Below, in pieces: positions 9,434 through 46,273 of a stretch of 64,000 nucleotides of DNA (within the stretch, counting starts at the first letter, position 1; every line of letters starts with the position of its first letter). The notes below the pieces were generated by a model. The model had not been told where the DNA came from and made no database searches. It worked only from the letters and a program-made list of their open reading frames with translations. A program made the translations under genes and the position numbers. This DNA comes from an uncultured Veillonellaceae bacterium (GTDB lineage Bacteria; Bacillota; Negativicutes; Veillonellales; Dialisteraceae), in NCBI GenBank assembly GCA_927353735.1, contig CAKMIA010000001.1:1-64000 (forward strand), in the 5' to 3' direction.

Positions 9434-10540
9434 ATGAGTACGAATTTACAGATTGGCATCGTGGGACTTCCGAATGTAGGGAAATCCACGCTGTTCAATG
9501 CCATTACCAAAGCCGGTGCGGAAGCGGCCAACTTCCCGTTCTGCACCATTGAACCCAATGTGGGCGTCGTGGAGGTGCCGGATCATCGTCTGTATGACCT
9601 GGCGGATATGTTCCACCCGAAAAAAACCACGCCCGCATTTACCCGCTTCGTCGATATCGCCGGTCTGGTAGCCGGTGCCTCCCGCGGGGAAGGTCTGGGC
9701 AACCAGTTCCTCAGCCATATCCGCGAAACAGATGCCATCGCTCATGTGGTGCGCTGCTTTGAAGACGGAAATATCACACACGTGGAAGGCTCTGTCGATC
9801 CGGTGCGTGACATGGACATCATCAATACAGAACTGTGCCTCGCTGATCTGGAGAGCGTGGATAAAAAGAAAACCAAAACGGCCAAGCTGGCTCAGGCAGG
9901 CATCAAGGATGCGAAGGCACAGCTTCCGCTGCTGGAACGGGTCTATGCGGCGCTTTCCGACGGGACGCCGGCCCGTGCGCTGGATTTCACGGAAGATGAC
10001 ATGGAAGTGCTGAAGGAACTAAACCTTCTGACGCTGAAGCCGGTTCTCTATGTGCTGAATACTTCGGAAGAGGATATCGCTGATCCGATGGCCAATCCTC
10101 TTGTGCAGAAGGCAGCGGCCGCGGCAGAAAAGGAAAATGCCAAATGGGTGCCGATCTCCGCGGAAATCGAACAGGAAGTGTCCGAGCTGGATGCAGAAGA
10201 AGCAAAGGCTTTCCTGTCCGATCTGGGAGAAACCGAACCCGGTCTGAACCGGCTGATTCGTTCGGCCTATTCTCTGCTGGGACTGATCAATTTCTTTACG
10301 GTCGGACCGGATGAATGTCGTTCCTGGACCGTACATGCCCACACCAAGGCGCCGAAAGCTGCCGGTAAAATTCATTCCGATATCGAACGCGGCTTTATTC
10401 GTGCGGAAATCGTTCCCTATGAAGATCTCATGGCCTGCGGCTCTTTCAATGCCGTCCGTGAAAAAGGACTTCTCCGCATTGAAGGCAAGGACTATGAAAT
10501 TCAGGACGGGGATGTGGCATATTTCCGCTTCAACGTCTGA
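9434..10540 (+). CDS. ychF: YchF/OLA1-type GTPase/ATPase
   Basis: Conserved ribosome-associated P-loop NTPase. The 368 residues show G1 GLPNVGKST, the YchF signature [12 protein letters not shown] (switch I), G3 [19 protein letters not shown], the atypical NTSEED in place of NKxD that gives the family its ATP preference, and the C-terminal TGS domain ([18 protein letters not shown] onward). GAGGAG precedes the ATG. Confidence 0.96.
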
Positions 10541-10641
10541 TGCTTGGATACAGAAGGGCAGAGCCTGCGGGCTCTGCTTTTTTGGTGCGCGGCACCGGAC
10601 GGGAATGCTACAATAGGAGAAATCTTTCTGAGGAGGAACGT

Positions 10642-11787
10642 ATGGCCATACAGTATCCTGTCATAAAAAAGGGCCGTTTTGTGAGCCGGCCGAATCGCTT
10701 CGTCATTTTTATGGAGATGGACGGTAAGATCGTCAAAGCCCATATGCCCAATCCGGGGCGTATGAGGGAACTGCTTTTCCCGGGGGTCATGCTTTACGCG
10801 GCACCTCATGCCAAAGAAGGTAGCCGCACGCAGTACCGCATTGTCGGTGTCGACCGGGAAGGAGAACCGGTGCCGCTTGATACTTCCCGTGCGAATGACA
10901 CCGCGGAGTGGCTCATCAACCACGGGAAAATTCCCGGCTGGGAGGCGTACCGCGTGCTTCGCCGGGAGGTCACCATGGGAGACAGCCGCTTTGATCTGCT
11001 TCTCGGCAATGAGGCGGTGCAGTTTCCGGTGGAAGTGAAATCCTGTACGCTGTTTGGAAAGAACGGAGCCATGTTTCCCGATGCGGTGACTGCCCGCGGC
11101 AGAAAGCATGTGCTTCATCTGGGAGATATCGGAAAAAACGGCGGCCGGGCAGGCCTGCTCGTTCTGGTTCAGTGGGATCGGGCCCGGTGGTTTCTGCCTG
11201 ATTATCATACAGACCCCGAATTTGCAGAGGCCTTTCGCTCGGTCGCGCCGTATATTGACTGGAAGGCGGCGGCTCTGCAGTGGACACCGGACTTTACCGT
11301 ACCGGCCGGCGTGCGGCTTCTTCCGTCGCCGCTGGAAATTCTGGATCAGGAATCGGGAAACAGGGGCGACTATCTGCTCGTGCTGCATCTGGACACTGCA
11401 CAGGATATAGAAATCGGCAGCCGGGGCATACTCCATTTTCCGGAAGGATATTACGTATATACCGGTTCAGCCAGGAAAAATCTGGACCAGCGCATGGCAC
11501 GGCACCGCCGGCTCAGAAAAGGTATGCACTGGCACATTGACTGGCTCCGGCAGAAAGCGGAATGGGTGGGGTGCATCCCCATCCGCACCGCAGAGGATCT
11601 GGAGCATCAGCTGGCGGCTTCCGTGTCCCGTATCGCCGACTGGGAAATCCCCGGCTTCGGCTGCACGGACTGCCATTGCCCCACGCATCTTTTCGGCTTC
11701 CATGAAAATCCCATGCATCTGCCCGGCTTTGTTCAGATAGAAGAGGATTTTGAAATCAACCGCCTGGACTCTTTGGTGCATGAATAA
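10642..11787 (+). CDS. sfsA: SfsA nuclease-like domain fused to DUF123 (GIY-YIG-like) domain
   Basis: The first ~230 residues are SfsA, a DNA-binding/nuclease-fold protein named for sugar fermentation stimulation; MPNPGRMRELL, DTSRANDTAEWLI and VEVKSCTLF...FPDAVTARGRKHV are its signatures. The last ~140 residues are a DUF123-type domain: YYVYTGSARKNLDQRMARH resembles the GIY-YIG nuclease core, followed by HWHIDWL and the cysteine pair region CTDCHCPTH. TGAGGAGG seven bases before ATG 10642 fixes the start, giving 381 residues. The fusion suggests a nucleic-acid enzyme; no activity is proven for the combination. Confidence 0.88.
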   Translation: MAIQYPVIKKGRFVSRPNRFVIFMEMDGKIVKAHMPNPGRMRELLFPGVMLYAAPHAKEGSRTQYRIVGVDREGEPVPLDTSRANDTAEWLINHGKIPGWEAYRVLRREVTMGDSRFDLLLGNEAVQFPVEVKSCTLFGKNGAMFPDAVTARGRKHVLHLGDIGKNGGRAGLLVLVQWDRARWFLPDYHTDPEFAEAFRSVAPYIDWKAAALQWTPDFTVPAGVRLLPSPLEILDQESGNRGDYLLVLHLDTAQDIEIGSRGILHFPEGYYVYTGSARKNLDQRMARHRRLRKGMHWHIDWLRQKAEWVGCIPIRTAEDLEHQLAASVSRIADWEIPGFGCTDCHCPTHLFGFHENPMHLPGFVQIEEDFEINRLDSLVHE

Positions 11788-11822
11788 AAAATACCGTCTC
11801 GATGATGAGACGGTATTTTTCT
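11784..11822. terminator. Bidirectional terminator
   Basis: AAATACCGTCTC and GAGACGGTATTT make a 12-bp perfect stem with A/T flanks on both sides, between the convergent sfsA fusion and helicase genes. Confidence 0.92.
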
Positions 11823-14800
11823 TATAAAACACCACTGCTGTCAGTAGTAGGAAGGTATTGGGCAGGAATAGGTTCCGTCAATTTATAAATAATCGTCATT
11901 GGCCGGCTGCCGGTGTGTGTTACGTAATGAGCAGGGCCAAGAAAAGTATAGCTCATGGCATTGCGATGGATATCTTGTTTGCATTCCCGAACAAACAGAA
12001 GGACGATATTTCCTGCTTCATTTTGACGGATATACCGCTGTCCGGTTTCAGATTCAGGGCTGGTAGAATTTTGCGATTGCCAATGAAACAGATGATCATT
12101 TATAGAGTAATCTTCATATAAAGTGGTATCTGAAAATTCTTTTGCCGATTTATTTAGTGTAATAAGGAATATATCCGTCTTTTTTTCCGGCAGGTACTTG
12201 ACGCCTTCCCTGATACTTGACGGATTTTTATATCCTAATGCGGCCAAGAGCTGATCTCTGGTATAGTGGCAGTGAACTTCCAAGGCACAGGGGTAGGGAA
12301 GATGCGGAGGCTTGGGTAAAATTTGTATATGATCGTATACATAGGCAAGGATTCCTTGAATTTCCTCAGACAGCGCAGGATGGCTGGAAAATCTTGTGAT
12401 TGCTTCTAAAGGTGTTTTCATCCCGCAGTGTTGATAGTCTTTTCCGTAGATCGTGTATTGCCACATACGAAGATATTGTTTTTCTACTTGCGATGTTGGT
12501 TCATAGGGATTGCCTATTTCTTTTTGAAGAAAACGAATCCATTGGGGAGAATCGATAGAAAGAATGCGGAAACAGTATTTCTGTAACTGTTCTTCCTCCT
12601 TTGTGATAGCGAAGTCTTCGCGAATGCCGGCCTCGGCACACAAGCGTGTATAGAGACGCGTTTTGTTAAAGAATGTTTCCGCGGGAAGTTGAAGGACTTT
12701 CAAAAATTGGGACAAAGTAGGAATACTGTGCGTGGCTTCGTATAAATTTTTAAGTTGTTCTTTATAAAATTCATTCTTGTGAAGCCGGCCACGGATATTT
12801 TCTAAAATACGTTTTTGTGCGATTTTTTCCAATTGAATGCAGCAGCCTTTGGGGACATGAGGAAATCCATTTCTGATTTCATTTTCTATATTTATTTCGG
12901 TACGGCCCAGAAGGGAAGCCAATCGACTGGAAAAATCATAGTTTCTATTGGCTTGCGCAACAAAATCCAATACGGTCAGGCAGTCCTTGTTTGGTGATAA
13001 ACGAAGGCCACGGCCCAATTGTTGTAAAAATATGGTTAGGCTATTGGTAGGACGTAAGAATAGAACCGTATTTACACTGGGAATATCTACACCTTCATTG
13101 AAGAGGTCAACAACAAAAAGAATTTTGATTTCGCCGCTCTCTAATTGTGATTTGGCTGTTTGCCGAACGGAATCCGGGGTATCAGAATCCAAATTTTGAG
13201 AGCGTATCCCATGAGAATTCATGTAGTTTGCCATGTATTCCGCATGGCGTTTTGAGACACAGAATCCAATACATTTTAAGTCACGAATATCGGCAGTATA
13301 TTGATCAATGGCTCGTAAAACGGCGCCGGCACGTTTTGAAGCAGTTGCTTCATTATCCGTATATTTGAATTCCAACTCTTTAATATCATATTTTCCGTTT
13401 TGCCATTTGACTTGAGAAAGATCAATAGGATCTTCCGTGCCAAAATAATGGAATGGGCAAAGCAAGCGACGTTCAATGGCATCTGGAAGCCGTATTTCCG
13501 CGCTAATATGATGATTGAAGTAGGAGAGAATGCTTTTTCCATCCATGCGTTCTGGAGTTGCTGTAAGGCCAAGCAAAATTTTAGGGTGAAAATATGAGAA
13601 TACTTCTTGATAAGAAATAGAAGCCGCATGATGCGTTTCATCTACGATGATCATATCGTAGTAATCTGGGGCCATTCGTTTCCAAAGCTGTTGCTTGTGG
13701 AAAGATTGGATGGACATGAAAAGATGTTCTGCCCGTACAGCATGATATTCGCCAACGCTCAATTCGCCAAAAGATGGATCTTTTAAAATCTGACGAAAAC
13801 AAGAGAGACTTTGTTGCAGGATTTCTTTGCGGTGGGCGAGAAATAAAAGCTTGGCTGACTGCGGATGGCGACTGGCAGCAAAACGTTGATAGTCAAATGC
13901 AGCAATGGCAGTTTTTCCGGTGCCTGTTGCAGCGACAATGAGATTTTGCCAACAGTTTTTGGCCTCCCGCTCTACTTGCAGTTGATCCAGAATTGCTTGC
14001 TGATAGGGGTAAGGACGAATTGTAAAAAAATAGGGCAGTGATGTAACTGAATCTGGATGACGAATTGAATCAATTGCAGAATATAATCGTTCTTTTTGCT
14101 CTGTGGAAAATGTTACAAAGTTGGGAGAATGCCAGTATGTCTCAAAGGTAGCGTGCATTTTTTCCAAGATATGGGGCTGATCTTGGGCAGTAATTTTCAT
14201 ATTCCATTCCAGACCATCGGCAATAGCCGCATGAGAAAGATTAGAAGAGCCAACGTATGCGGTAGAATAACCGCTGTTGCGATAGAACATATAGGCCTTG
14301 GCATGCAGCCGCGTTTCTTTGACATCATAAGAAATACGAATTTGGGTGTTTGGAAGTTTAGCTAATTCTTGTACCGCTTTAGGATCGGTTGCTCCCATGT
14401 AAGTCGTGGTAATTACCCGGAGCTGGCCGCCGCGTTGGGTGAATCGGCGGAGAGAGGGAAGGAGGATAGTTAGACCGGAAAATTTGATGAAAGAAACCAG
14501 CAAGTCAATATGATCTGAAGAGCCAATTTCCTTGGTCAGTTCAACGGCAATATTTACATCTTTTCGACTATTGGTGAATAAAAAACTGCGGGACAAAGAA
14601 GTAGAAGGACGGAGCCATTTTTCTTTTGTGATATGATTCCTTTGATGCTGCAGGGATAAAAGCAAAGAATCATGCATCGCAACAGTTAATTTTTCACCCA
14701 ACTGAGGGGCGGAACGAAATAAAAAACGAATGCATTCATTAGTAAAATCAATTTCTTTGTCTGCGGTTTCTATATCTAATTCATCGGCCAATTCTTTTAA

Positions 14801-14986
14801 ACGGCTTTGAAATAAATGCTGTAAATAAACAGATAATCCGTGCACGGCCTCCTGTGGATCTAAGGCTTCCTGGTCTGTCCAAATTTCTTTTGCGTCGAGG
14901 GCCTCCTGTAATTTTGTTTGAAATTCCTTGCTGAGAATTTTTTCATATAATCCATCTTTGAGGGATGAAATCGCTGGCTCTTTCAT
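11822..14986 (-). CDS. PLD-nuclease/SF2 helicase protein, DUF3427-type
   Basis: A 1,054-residue three-part protein. Residues ~130-290 are a phospholipase D-like (HKD) nuclease domain: HAKAYMF (His228, Lys230) and GSSNLS (246-251). Residues ~320-680 are an SF2 DEAD/DEAH-like helicase: motif I ATGTGKT (353-359), II DETH (449-452), III TATP (475-478), VI QQLGRGLR (655-662). The remaining ~370 residues resemble the DUF3427 C-terminal region of such helicases. The first ~125 residues are helical and unassigned. The gene stands alone, is clearly AT-richer than both neighbours and interrupts a run of housekeeping genes, so horizontal transfer is likely. A role in defence or DNA processing is inference from architecture only. 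Confidence 0.88.
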   Translation of the reverse strand: MKEPAISSLKDGLYEKILSKEFQTKLQEALDAKEIWTDQEALDPQEAVHGLSVYLQHLFQSRLKELADELDIETADKEIDFTNECIRFLFRSAPQLGEKLTVAMHDSLLLSLQHQRNHITKEKWLRPSTSLSRSFLFTNSRKDVNIAVELTKEIGSSDHIDLLVSFIKFSGLTILLPSLRRFTQRGGQLRVITTTYMGATDPKAVQELAKLPNTQIRISYDVKETRLHAKAYMFYRNSGYSTAYVGSSNLSHAAIADGLEWNMKITAQDQPHILEKMHATFETYWHSPNFVTFSTEQKERLYSAIDSIRHPDSVTSLPYFFTIRPYPYQQAILDQLQVEREAKNCWQNLIVAATGTGKTAIAAFDYQRFAASRHPQSAKLLFLAHRKEILQQSLSCFRQILKDPSFGELSVGEYHAVRAEHLFMSIQSFHKQQLWKRMAPDYYDMIIVDETHHAASISYQEVFSYFHPKILLGLTATPERMDGKSILSYFNHHISAEIRLPDAIERRLLCPFHYFGTEDPIDLSQVKWQNGKYDIKELEFKYTDNEATASKRAGAVLRAIDQYTADIRDLKCIGFCVSKRHAEYMANYMNSHGIRSQNLDSDTPDSVRQTAKSQLESGEIKILFVVDLFNEGVDIPSVNTVLFLRPTNSLTIFLQQLGRGLRLSPNKDCLTVLDFVAQANRNYDFSSRLASLLGRTEINIENEIRNGFPHVPKGCCIQLEKIAQKRILENIRGRLHKNEFYKEQLKNLYEATHSIPTLSQFLKVLQLPAETFFNKTRLYTRLCAEAGIREDFAITKEEEQLQKYCFRILSIDSPQWIRFLQKEIGNPYEPTSQVEKQYLRMWQYTIYGKDYQHCGMKTPLEAITRFSSHPALSEEIQGILAYVYDHIQILPKPPHLPYPCALEVHCHYTRDQLLAALGYKNPSSIREGVKYLPEKKTDIFLITLNKSAKEFSDTTLYEDYSINDHLFHWQSQNSTSPESETGQRYIRQNEAGNIVLLFVRECKQDIHRNAMSYTFLGPAHYVTHTGSRPMTIIYKLTEPIPAQYLPTTDSSGVL

Positions 14987-15082
14987 AATGGTCTCCTGTA
15001 AGTTGTTAATAAAATTTATTGATTGTAGTATAGCAGCGAAAAGAGAAAGAGAAAAGAAATCCTAAGGACTACGAATTCCAAA

Positions 15083-15126
15083 TAAAAAATTCCTGCCGAC
15101 TTATACAATCGACAGGAATTTTTTAT
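15083..15126. terminator. Terminator between lgt and the helicase gene
   Basis: AAAAATTCCTGCCGA and TCGACAGGAATTTTT pair with one mismatch and have T runs on either strand. It ends lgt and insulates the helicase gene. Confidence 0.82.
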
Positions 15127-15920
15127 TTCTCTGATGGCGCTTCATCCGGTTCATTTCGATACCGGAAATGGAAATAGAGAAGGGCGCATCCGGCGAGGAG
15201 AAAGGCGCCGAGGCTGGTGAGCTGGGCGCTCTTGAGGCCCCAGAGCAGGGTGCCGTAATCGCCGCGCAGATATTCGAGGAAGAAGCGCAGCACGGAGTAG
15301 AGCATGATGTACAGGCAGAAGACCGTGCCCTTGGCGTGGCGGAAGCAGGAGAACCAGAGCAGGAGAACGAAAATGAGGATGTCTCCCTGACACTCCCATA
15401 CCTCTGCCGGCCACAGGGGCTGTGCGCCGTAGGTACGGAAGGCGAGCGTGGTGTGCGGATAGAGTAGTCCGAAGTCAGCGCCTGTAGGATGGCCGAAGGC
15501 ATCGCCGTTCATAAAATTGGCAATGCGGCCCACCGCCTGTCCGAGAATGATGGCCGGCGCCACGGTATCTGCGAAATGAAGAACAGGGATATGATTGCGC
15601 CGCAGATAAATATACGCGGCGACAAAGGCAAAGACCAGACCGCCCTGAATGGCCATGCCGCCCTGCCATACGAAGGGAATTTCAAGCAGGTGATTGTGGT
15701 AATAGTCCCAGTCAAAAAAGAACACGTCCCACAGCCGTCCGCCGAGAATGCCCGCAAAGGCAATAGTGAGACCCAGATCAAAAATGTGTTGTTCCCAGCC
15801 GCGGCCGTCTTTTTTCAGGAGGAAGTAGGCAGTGATGCATCCGGACAGAATGCCCAGTGAAAAGAAGATGCCGTAGAAGCGAATGGGAAAGTCTCCGATA
15901 AAGGTGAGATACTGATGCAT
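15123..15920 (-). CDS. lgt: Prolipoprotein diacylglyceryl transferase
   Basis: Transfers diacylglycerol from phosphatidylglycerol to the lipobox cysteine of prelipoproteins in the inner membrane. About 265 residues with seven hydrophobic segments; the Lgt signature is GRIANFMNGDAFG, and FPIRFYG and GGRLWDVFF are also family-typical. ATG 15920 has AAAGGA upstream; the frame is open to 16007. It is divergent from the secreted GH18 gene. Confidence 0.95.
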   Translation of the reverse strand: MHQYLTFIGDFPIRFYGIFFSLGILSGCITAYFLLKKDGRGWEQHIFDLGLTIAFAGILGGRLWDVFFFDWDYYHNHLLEIPFVWQGGMAIQGGLVFAFVAAYIYLRRNHIPVLHFADTVAPAIILGQAVGRIANFMNGDAFGHPTGADFGLLYPHTTLAFRTYGAQPLWPAEVWECQGDILIFVLLLWFSCFRHAKGTVFCLYIMLYSVLRFFLEYLRGDYGTLLWGLKSAQLTSLGAFLLAGCALLYFHFRYRNEPDEAPSEK

Positions 15921-16090
15921 GAGATTCCTTTCCTGGCCGGATTCCGTGTGAAGCGGGACAGACCGCAGCCAGTGCGGCATTTCCTGTTTCTTGACGGTCT
16001 CCGGCACATCTTTTATATTATTTACATTATACTCAGGTTGCCAATAGGAAAAAGCCGCGGGAAGCGGTGATAGATAGAAAGGAAAAGAAG

Positions 16091-43864: not shown

Positions 43865-44569
43865 TCAGTCCATATGGAAACGGTAGCCTGCTCCCCATAC
43901 GGTTTCAATTCGTTCATAAGGCCGTCCGGCGATGGCTTTCAGCTTATCGCGAAGCCGATTGATATGTACGGTAACGGTCGCCGGTTCACCGATGGGGTCC
44001 AGACTCCAGATTTTTTCAAACAGCTGCTCTTTGGAGAAGACTTCATTGGGATGTTCCACAAGAAAACACAGAAGATCAAATTCCTTGCCTGTGAGAGAGA
44101 CATCCTTCCCGTCCAGAATCACCTGTCTTGCTTTGGGGCGGATTGTCAGGGTATCGATAGTGATGCCTTCTTCCACCGCCGGTGCGGATGCTTCATTTTT
44201 CATCAAGCGCTGATGTGTGGAGATGTGGGCGCGAAGTCTGGCCACCAGTTCCGTCGGGCTGAAGGGTTTTACGATATAGTCATCTGCGCCGAGGCCGAGG
44301 CCGCGGATTTTATCGACCTCTTCCTTTCGGGCGGTGACAAAAAGAATCGGCACATCGGTCTTTTCCCGCATTTTGCGGCAGAGGGAAAAGCCATCATCGC
44401 CAGGAAGCATTACATCGAGAAGAATGGCATCGATTTTTACTTCATCCATAATTTTCAGTGCTTCTTCACCGTTTTCCGCAATGCGGACTACATAGTTGTT
44501 TGGTTCCAGAAAATCCCGTTCCAGTTCGGCGATAAGGGAATCGTCTTCTACAATGAGCACGTTTAGCAT
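43865..44569 (-). CDS. OmpR/PhoB-family response regulator
   Basis: 234 residues. Receiver domain with intact pocket (E8-D9-D10 in VEDDS; Asp52 in LLDVMLP; VTAR; VKPF) and a winged-helix DNA-binding domain ending in VWGAGYRFHMD. The start overlaps the kinase gene's end by seven bases, so they form one operon. It precedes the epimerase. Confidence 0.94.
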   Translation of the reverse strand: MLNVLIVEDDSLIAELERDFLEPNNYVVRIAENGEEALKIMDEVKIDAILLDVMLPGDDGFSLCRKMREKTDVPILFVTARKEEVDKIRGLGLGADDYIVKPFSPTELVARLRAHISTHQRLMKNEASAPAVEEGITIDTLTIRPKARQVILDGKDVSLTGKEFDLLCFLVEHPNEVFSKEQLFEKIWSLDPIGEPATVTVHINRLRDKLKAIAGRPYERIETVWGAGYRFHMD

Positions 44570-45438
44570 GATAAACCTCCTGTCAGTGGCAATGTAATTG
44601 TAATTGTCAGCCCATTTTCATTTTGTGCAGACGCTGTACCATGATGCGCTGAGGCAACCTTTGCAATGATATGCAGGCCAAGCCCTGATCCCGGTTGGTG
44701 TAATGCATTTTTTCCGCGGAATCCCTGTTTAAATACATGGGGAAGTGCATCCGGAGGTACACCTGGGCCATCATCATGATAGGAAAAGAATACCTCTCCA
44801 TTTTTTTTCAGGCAGGTGATCTGTACCACGGAATAGGGTCTCGTTCGATATTTTACTGTGTTTGCAAACAGATTGAGCAATACCCGCTGAAATGACTGGC
44901 GATCCAGTGGAAGCTCCAGTGTCTTATCGAGATCCATCCTGAGCCGGATCTGCTTTTCCTGGATCTTATCCTTTCGGCTTGTAGTGAATTCCTGAATCAG
45001 TGAGGATAGGTTGGTCAGCTCTTTATGACTGGCGTCTTCATTCTTGTTGGCCTCGGATAATTTATCAATGAGAAGGGATAAATCCTTAGCACGAAGCATG
45101 ATGGCAGCCAGATAGGCATCCCTTTTTTCCGGTGTCTGATCAAGATGCTTCTGCAGCGCTTCTGTATAGCCGATAATTGTTGTCAGAGGAATACGAAGAT
45201 CATGCAGAATTTCGGCAATAGCTGTTCGCCGTTTTTGTTCCTTCTGTGTACAGATCCGGGATTTTTGTGAAAGGTGGGATTGCAATACAGAAAAGGCGGA
45301 ACAGAGAAGAGCAATATCGCCTGTTGCATTCTGAGGAAGCGGGGAAGATACATGTCCTTCCGCAGCTGCCTGAATGGCATCAGCAAGCTGTCTGGCCTGT
45401 GGGGAGACAGAAGGTGGGGAGTTTGCGATAGGCAACAT
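44563..45438 (-). CDS. Sensor histidine kinase without membrane segment
   Basis: 291 residues. After an N-terminal stretch with HAMP-like character (AIQAAAEGHV...GDIALLCSAFSVLQSHL) come HisKA with His79 in ILHDLRIPLTTI and HATPase: N-box LLNLFANTVKY, G1 DDGPGVP, G2 GSGLGLHI. There is no transmembrane segment or periplasmic sensor. AAGGGGGT before ATG supports the start at 45438, so a missing N-terminal exon by frameshift is unlikely, though the short gap to xth (72 bases) leaves no room for a sensor domain. It probably senses a cytoplasmic signal or partner. Confidence 0.9.
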   Translation of the reverse strand: MLPIANSPPSVSPQARQLADAIQAAAEGHVSSPLPQNATGDIALLCSAFSVLQSHLSQKSRICTQKEQKRRTAIAEILHDLRIPLTTIIGYTEALQKHLDQTPEKRDAYLAAIMLRAKDLSLLIDKLSEANKNEDASHKELTNLSSLIQEFTTSRKDKIQEKQIRLRMDLDKTLELPLDRQSFQRVLLNLFANTVKYRTRPYSVVQITCLKKNGEVFFSYHDDGPGVPPDALPHVFKQGFRGKNALHQPGSGLGLHIIAKVASAHHGTASAQNENGLTITITLPLTGGLSC

Positions 45439-45511
45439 ACAAATACCCCCTTACATAGTATAAACAGATAAAAATAGTGATTACATAAGAAATCATAAAA
45501 GCTTGTTAAAT

Positions 45512-46273
45512 TCAGCCGAGGCACAATTCAACCGGGCAATGGTCGCTTCCCTGAATTTCCGGATGGATGGAAGCCTTTTTTATATGAGGGGTTAAGCCTT
45601 GCGAAGTAATAAAATAATCAATGCGCCATCCGATGTTTCTGTCTCTGGCTTTGGTAATATAGCTCCACCAGGAATAGGCACCGGTTGTATCCGGATGAAG
45701 CAGCCGGAAGGTATCTGTAAATCCGGAAGTGAGAAGCTCTGTCATTTTTTCACGTTCCTCATCGGTAAATCCTGCATTTTTTCGGTTTTGAGCAGGATTG
45801 GCTAGATCAATTTCGTTATGAGCCACATTCAGATCCCCACAAAGAACAATCGGCTTTTTTCGGGATAAATCAAGCAGATAAGCACGAAAAGCATCTTCCC
45901 AGCGGAGGCGATAGGATAAACGGGCCAGCCCGCGCTGACTGTTGGGCGTATAGCATGTAATGAGATAATGGTCAGAAAATTCGGCAGTAATGAGCCGGCC
46001 TTCCTGATCAAATTCATCCTGATTCATGCCATATGTAACAGAGAGAGGCTCTTTTTTTGTAAATAAGGCGGTACCGCTGTATCCTTTTTTGAAAGCACTG
46101 TTCCAGTACTGGAAATATCCCGGGAGATCCAGTGTTAGCTGGTCGGGCTGAAGTTTTGTTTCCTGTAAACAGAAACAGTCTGCATTTAGCGAGGTAAATG
46201 CTTCCATAAAACCTTTTTTCATACAGGCTCGCAGACCGTTTACATTCCAGGAAATATATTTTAGAGAATCCAT
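45512..46273 (-). CDS. xth: Exodeoxyribonuclease III
   Basis: AP endonuclease/3'-exonuclease, 253 residues of the endonuclease/exonuclease/phosphatase fold. Metal- and catalytic motifs: SWNVNGLRA, LQETKL, YSGTALFT, GDLNVAH, and GSDHCPVEL. AGGAGT precedes the ATG. Together with nth it gives base-excision repair steps in this window. Confidence 0.95.
   Translation of the reverse strand: MDSLKYISWNVNGLRACMKKGFMEAFTSLNADCFCLQETKLQPDQLTLDLPGYFQYWNSAFKKGYSGTALFTKKEPLSVTYGMNQDEFDQEGRLITAEFSDHYLITCYTPNSQRGLARLSYRLRWEDAFRAYLLDLSRKKPIVLCGDLNVAHNEIDLANPAQNRKNAGFTDEEREKMTELLTSGFTDTFRLLHPDTTGAYSWWSYITKARDRNIGWRIDYFITSQGLTPHIKKASIHPEIQGSDHCPVELCLG

Follow-up and report, generated by a model that had tools for sequence, protein, structure and literature searches.

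A probable type IV restriction enzyme gene of the SauUSI family, acquired horizontally, at the sfsA-lgt site of an uncultured Veillonellaceae bacterium

The gene and its insertion site

The stretch of DNA analysed here (64,000 nucleotides, hereafter the window) carries, at positions 11822-14986 of the minus strand, a gene for a protein of 1,054 amino acids that domain, PADLOC and fold matches assign to the SauUSI family of type IV restriction enzymes. With an ATG start, an AGGAG ribosome-binding site and no internal stops, the open reading frame is intact. The encoded protein contains the Pfam domains PLDc_2 (residues 154-285), ResIII (323-480), Helicase_C (566-663) and DUF3427 (899-1042), that is, the combination of a PLD nuclease, an SF2 helicase and a DUF3427 tail in a single chain that the first-pass annotation had described.

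The gene is flanked by two core genes, an sfsA-DUF123 fusion on the left (10540-11787, plus strand), which adjoins lgt in related genomes, and lgt on the right (15123-16007, minus strand), both pointing toward the inserted gene. It stands alone between them, without an adjacent methyltransferase gene, as expected of a type IV enzyme of the SauUSI kind. The terminators previously suspected on either side are present in the form of hairpins followed by T-runs, one at 11788-11822 (-17.8 kcal/mol, z -6.6), common to the convergent sfsA and SauUSI-like genes, and the other at 15080-15130 (z about -10), between the upstream region of the SauUSI-like gene and the 3' end of lgt. A simple terminator scan of the window listed neither hairpin, probably because the stems extend into the T-tract.

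Comparison of codon usage and GC3 with those of the other window ORFs supports the earlier view of the locus as an AT-rich island: the GC content of the gene is 41.5% and its GC3 36.9%, against means of 51.3% and 54.2%, respectively, for the 56 long ORFs of the window, among which it has the lowest GC3. Another AT-richer stretch of the window, at 44563-46273, encompasses a gene of the endonuclease/exonuclease/phosphatase family and a histidine kinase gene, both on the minus strand.

The gene is patchily distributed among relatives. No full-length copy was detected in the two genomes of the same genus that were searched; such copies are present in four other genomes of the family (G005, G006, G008 and G009) and in three more of the class. 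The copies of G006 and G008 are located far from the sfsA-lgt site, which is empty in these two genomes as well as in G004, G010 and G011, with sfsA adjoining lgt across gaps of about 60-380 bp. In G002, which belongs to the same genus, a YadA-like autotransporter gene (L053:1651-2682) lies between sfsA and lgt, so that this site is possibly an insertion hotspot; in G001, the two genes are on separate contigs. In the phylogenetic tree, the window protein groups with homologues from Allisonella, other genomes of its family and an Acidaminococcus. Homologues are also found on plasmids and viral contigs: a viral-contig search with an alignment as the query yielded eight loci, three of them strong, and the same search with the window protein alone yielded none. 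Some homologues adjoin defence genes, for example McrBC (G259:C61) and, on a plasmid, SIR2/SLATT. Because the gene is missing in both same-genus genomes searched, and five relatives have an empty site and another a different gene at it, we conclude that it is a horizontally moved gene inserted between two convergent core genes. The first-pass annotation would have been refuted by a copy of matching composition at this position in all relatives; neither the site nor the composition shows this pattern.

A sister subfamily of SauUSI with a changed base pocket

Among solved structures, SauUSI (7clg) is the nearest in both sequence and fold. A profile built from eight homologues aligns, over residues 135-1023, with residues 34-918 of SauUSI (E 1.5e-132), covering the PLD domain, the motor, the coupler and the target recognition domain in unchanged order. 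The structure points the same way: an AlphaFold model computed from 100 sequences (pLDDT 83.6), which replaced an earlier, poor prediction from eight sequences (pLDDT 62), has SauUSI (7clg) as its best Foldseek match, with an E-value of 9.6e-48 over 937 columns. PADLOC identifies the protein as mREase_IV (E 2.7e-219). Of the two PADLOC models under this name, PDLC03658 is SauUSI itself (953/953 aa), and PDLC03659 represents the subfamily of the window protein, matching it from residue 125 to 1043 along nearly the entire model (728 bits). The two subfamilies are separated in the tree, where that of the window protein (109 rows) and the SauUSI clade (23 rows) each occupy one side of a branch, and the window protein is only 24-31% identical to members of the SauUSI clade.

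The domains, all on the minus strand, can be delineated in detail. The chain begins with a helical extension of about 125 residues (1 to about 130; 14597-14986) that is typical of this long subfamily and missing in SauUSI; the structure model predicts helices at 20-31, 44-67 and 74-92, and a Pfam search of this extension matched no family. The PLD nuclease domain (about 153-286; 14129-14530) contains H228-x-K230 and G246-S-S-N249, and H228, K230, G246, S247 and N249 are invariant in an alignment of 100 homologues. The glutamate of the SauUSI HxK(x)4E motif, E126, is replaced by tyrosine in the window protein, a position that varies within the SauUSI clade, too. In the SF2 helicase-like ATPase (about 322-674; 12965-14023), the motifs GTGKT (355-359), DExH (here DETH, 449-452) and QQLGRGLR (655-662) are invariant or nearly so among the 100 homologues. 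An alpha-helical coupler, delineated in the structure model (about 675-898; 12293-12964) and collinear with SauUSI 618-805, connects the motor to the DUF3427 or SRA-like target recognition domain (about 899-1054; 11825-12292).

Given this homology, the collinearity and the conservation of the catalytic residues, we assign the protein to the SauUSI family and consider it highly probable that its gene was gained horizontally and that it acts as a type IV restriction enzyme, ATP-dependent and composed of a single chain. Of the two claims on its activity, the type IV assignment is the firmer one. The specificity for m5C is held loosely because the base pocket is altered and the placement of a key tyrosine differs between alignments. 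The pocket residues of SauUSI, Y831, D858 and W868, are themselves modelled assignments (PMC7913695). Two of these are retained, D858 as D959 (80/80 in the subfamily) and W868 as W969 (79/80). Y831, the methyl contact, aligns with V929, and M829, which is inserted upon base flipping, with E927, and these replacements span nearly the whole subfamily. The two sequence alignments place the SauUSI tyrosine at different positions of the subfamily. Position 931 is aromatic in 77/80 members (Y or W), and this residue may stand in for Y831 in a shifted register. A search of the accessible literature found no biochemistry for this subfamily.

Thus, the modification targeted by this subfamily may differ from that of SauUSI. 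In its strong form, this reading holds that the enzyme is modification-dependent but is triggered by another base or backbone modification, neither m5C nor hm5C, the changed pocket marking a new specificity. The nearly subfamily-wide replacements by V929 and E927 favour it, as do the new invariant residues of the recognition domain (Y960 and Q970, with H968 in 79/80) and the low identity to the SauUSI clade; retention of the flipped-base aspartate and the stacking tryptophan speaks against it, as does the fact that part of the subfamily shares its NUDIX partner family with SauUSI (see below), and on balance we regard it as somewhat unlikely. The host also has m5C restriction-modification genes of its own, which again favours a different trigger: an m5C methyltransferase gene and a Vsr gene lie beside a FokI-type nuclease gene (G000:C10, L059), and a second PF00145 protein is encoded near a gene that, by eye, is ParB-like. 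Therefore, an active m5C-directed enzyme must either ignore the sites methylated by these enzymes or have another trigger.

The first-pass annotation had drawn a comparison with Mokosh-like proteins while noting their different helicase family. An abortive defence protein of this or another PLD/helicase type, acting independently of DNA modification, would likewise join PLD and helicase in one chain; furthermore, one homologue (L008) weakly matches the PADLOC model PLD_Helicase (E 1.4e-4). However, no Mokosh model is among the PADLOC matches of the window protein, and both its helicase, of the SF2 type, and the SRA-like domain at its C-terminus correspond to those of SauUSI, so that this identity is very unlikely. 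A chromosomal repair helicase-nuclease of the RadD type, suggested by the resemblance of the helicase core (NCBIfam E 2.9e-26; Foldseek rank 3 on), is less credible still, given that the NCBIfam score is 91.9 bits against a RadD cut-off of 720 bits, the match is confined to the helicase core whereas that to SauUSI is full-length and far stronger, and the patchy presence, empty site, foreign composition and homologues on plasmids and viral contigs do not fit such a role. Both identities were rejected on model scores and architecture. What had been offered as a possible defence gene is, with its SauUSI-type and mREase_IV matches, a probable one, but of a known kind, from a sister subfamily already filed by PADLOC, and neither Mokosh-like nor of unknown architecture.

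A recurrent NUDIX partner in the SauUSI family

SauUSI, which is treated as a one-gene system, has been portrayed as a major obstacle to gene transfer in S. aureus. Clustering of the neighbours of 80 homologues revealed a single outstanding recurrent gene, which encodes a NUDIX hydrolase. This result concerns the SauUSI family and not the window locus, where the neighbours are sfsA and lgt and no NUDIX gene adjoins the enzyme gene. In an HMM search of all loci, 17/20 genes of the SauUSI clade, SauUSI itself included, had a NUDIX gene no more than 100 bp away. For the window subfamily, counting the genes flanked by sufficient sequence on each side, the figure was 30/96, and it was 7/24 in a phylum sample drawn evenly. 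As background, 1.91 Mb of flanking sequence contained 10 such genes at distances greater than 300 bp. The same phylum provided two comparisons. The absence of the gene from all 20 HsdR loci disfavours the notion that it is a mere defence-island marker, and its absence from all 20 McrBC loci counts against a general form of the cleaning model discussed below, in which every m5C-dependent enzyme would need it.

The partner can be located upstream or downstream of the enzyme gene, in either orientation. Its distribution requires no fewer than 20 changes on the tree, so that the link was formed or lost repeatedly; such counts do not distinguish gains from losses. In S. aureus, the NUDIX gene is immediately upstream of the SauUSI gene, on the same strand, and ends one base before its start (L226:4382-7646); the record is filed as a Staphylococcus phage and looks like S. 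aureus chromosome. A mobilizable Lactiplantibacillus plasmid (L228:3454-7089) has three consecutive genes, for a NUDIX protein, a SauUSI-like enzyme and a MazG-like protein. In L080 and L090, the enzyme gene is followed by NUDIX ORFs that extend into further domains, acetyltransferase-like and methyltransferase-like as judged by eye. The adjacency has been noticed before: a figure legend mentions MutT homologues beside SauUSI homologues in Streptococcus (PMC7641849, 2020), and PDC-S07, the phage defence candidate under which PADLOC models this NUDIX family, was co-localised with type IV RM in 23/23 S. suis cases (PMC12813430, 2026). We found no published mechanism for it in a search of mainly open-access literature.

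All 38 aligned partners keep the core Nudix-box residues as well as an aspartate, D116 in alignment numbering, that matches in position the aspartate of the NudG 'PAD' motif. Their profile matches the CTP pyrophosphohydrolases 3gwy (5e-44) and 2rrk (4e-35), the latter being E. coli NudG (Orf135), better than E. coli MutT (1e-26). PDB entry 5x1x, whose title reads simply 'Mutator mutT protein', is a near-identical match to the S. aureus partner. The preferred substrate of E. coli NudG is 5-methyl-dCTP (PMC5158307; PMC10742078).

We tentatively suggest, as a possibility rather than an expectation, that SauUSI-family systems often consist of two genes, the NudG-like hydrolase (PDC-S07) averting self-restriction. 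Shredded modified DNA or scavenged modified nucleosides would yield 5-methyl- or hydroxymethyl-dCMP, which, once rephosphorylated, would enter the chromosome and mark it for the restriction enzyme; by cleaving 5-methyl- and 5-hydroxymethyl-dCTP, the hydrolase would block such incorporation. Members without the NUDIX gene, that of the window included, would recognise another target, rely on another cleaner or not salvage modified dC. Several observations speak against the cleaning model, namely the absence of such a partner from the McrBC loci, the lack of the NUDIX gene near most members of the window subfamily, and the host itself, in whose 94%-complete genome no NudG-like gene was found. The three NUDIX proteins that are encoded elsewhere in this genome were rejected as NudG-like, resembling, when their sequences were read by eye, ADP-ribose pyrophosphatase, MTH1-like and NADH pyrophosphatase-like enzymes. 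The recurrence of the partner suggests that modification-dependent restriction may need cleaning of the nucleotide pool; if so, PDC-S07 would gain a function, and the activity of NudG-like enzymes on 5-methyl-dCTP would have a possible role.

Proposed mode of action and comparison with known systems

SauUSI dimerises via its PLD domains, recognises m5C with an SRA-like domain, and translocates along and shreds DNA in an ATP-driven manner (PMC7913695; PMC3874153). By analogy, we infer that the window enzyme would act as a homodimer held together by the PLD domains, in which binding of the C-terminal SRA-like domain to DNA with a modified cytosine, perhaps 5-methyl- or 5-hydroxymethylcytosine, would activate the SF2 motor; the enzyme would then translocate and, on meeting another bound copy, would cut both strands with the HxK nuclease, shredding the DNA. 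The gene probably provides a barrier to modified DNA of foreign origin, and it draws attention to a subfamily that has been little studied and whose base pocket is altered.

The window protein shares with S. aureus SauUSI (PDB 7clg, PMC7913695) the order PLD, SF2 ATPase, coupler and SRA-like target recognition domain as well as the HxK, GSSN and helicase motifs and the equivalents of D858 and W868. It differs in the N-terminal extension, which the PDLC03659 model also lacks, in the Y831 to V and M829 to E changes of the base pocket, and in having no NUDIX gene beside it. A third clade of shorter PLD-helicase proteins, of about 800 aa (L206-L225), has the same PLD and SF2 core and a similarly patchy presence but a different neighbourhood: in 14/20 loci, a small gene close by is MazG-like, although this label is weak (Pfam E 0.005, below the cut-off), and a NUDIX gene is present in 0/20; DUF3427 was not detected in the one member scanned. 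NgoAVII and CglI likewise combine a PLD nuclease with an SF2 motor (PMC7913695), but they are built from two subunits and recognise their targets with a B3 domain, whereas the window protein is a single chain with an SRA-like target recognition domain.
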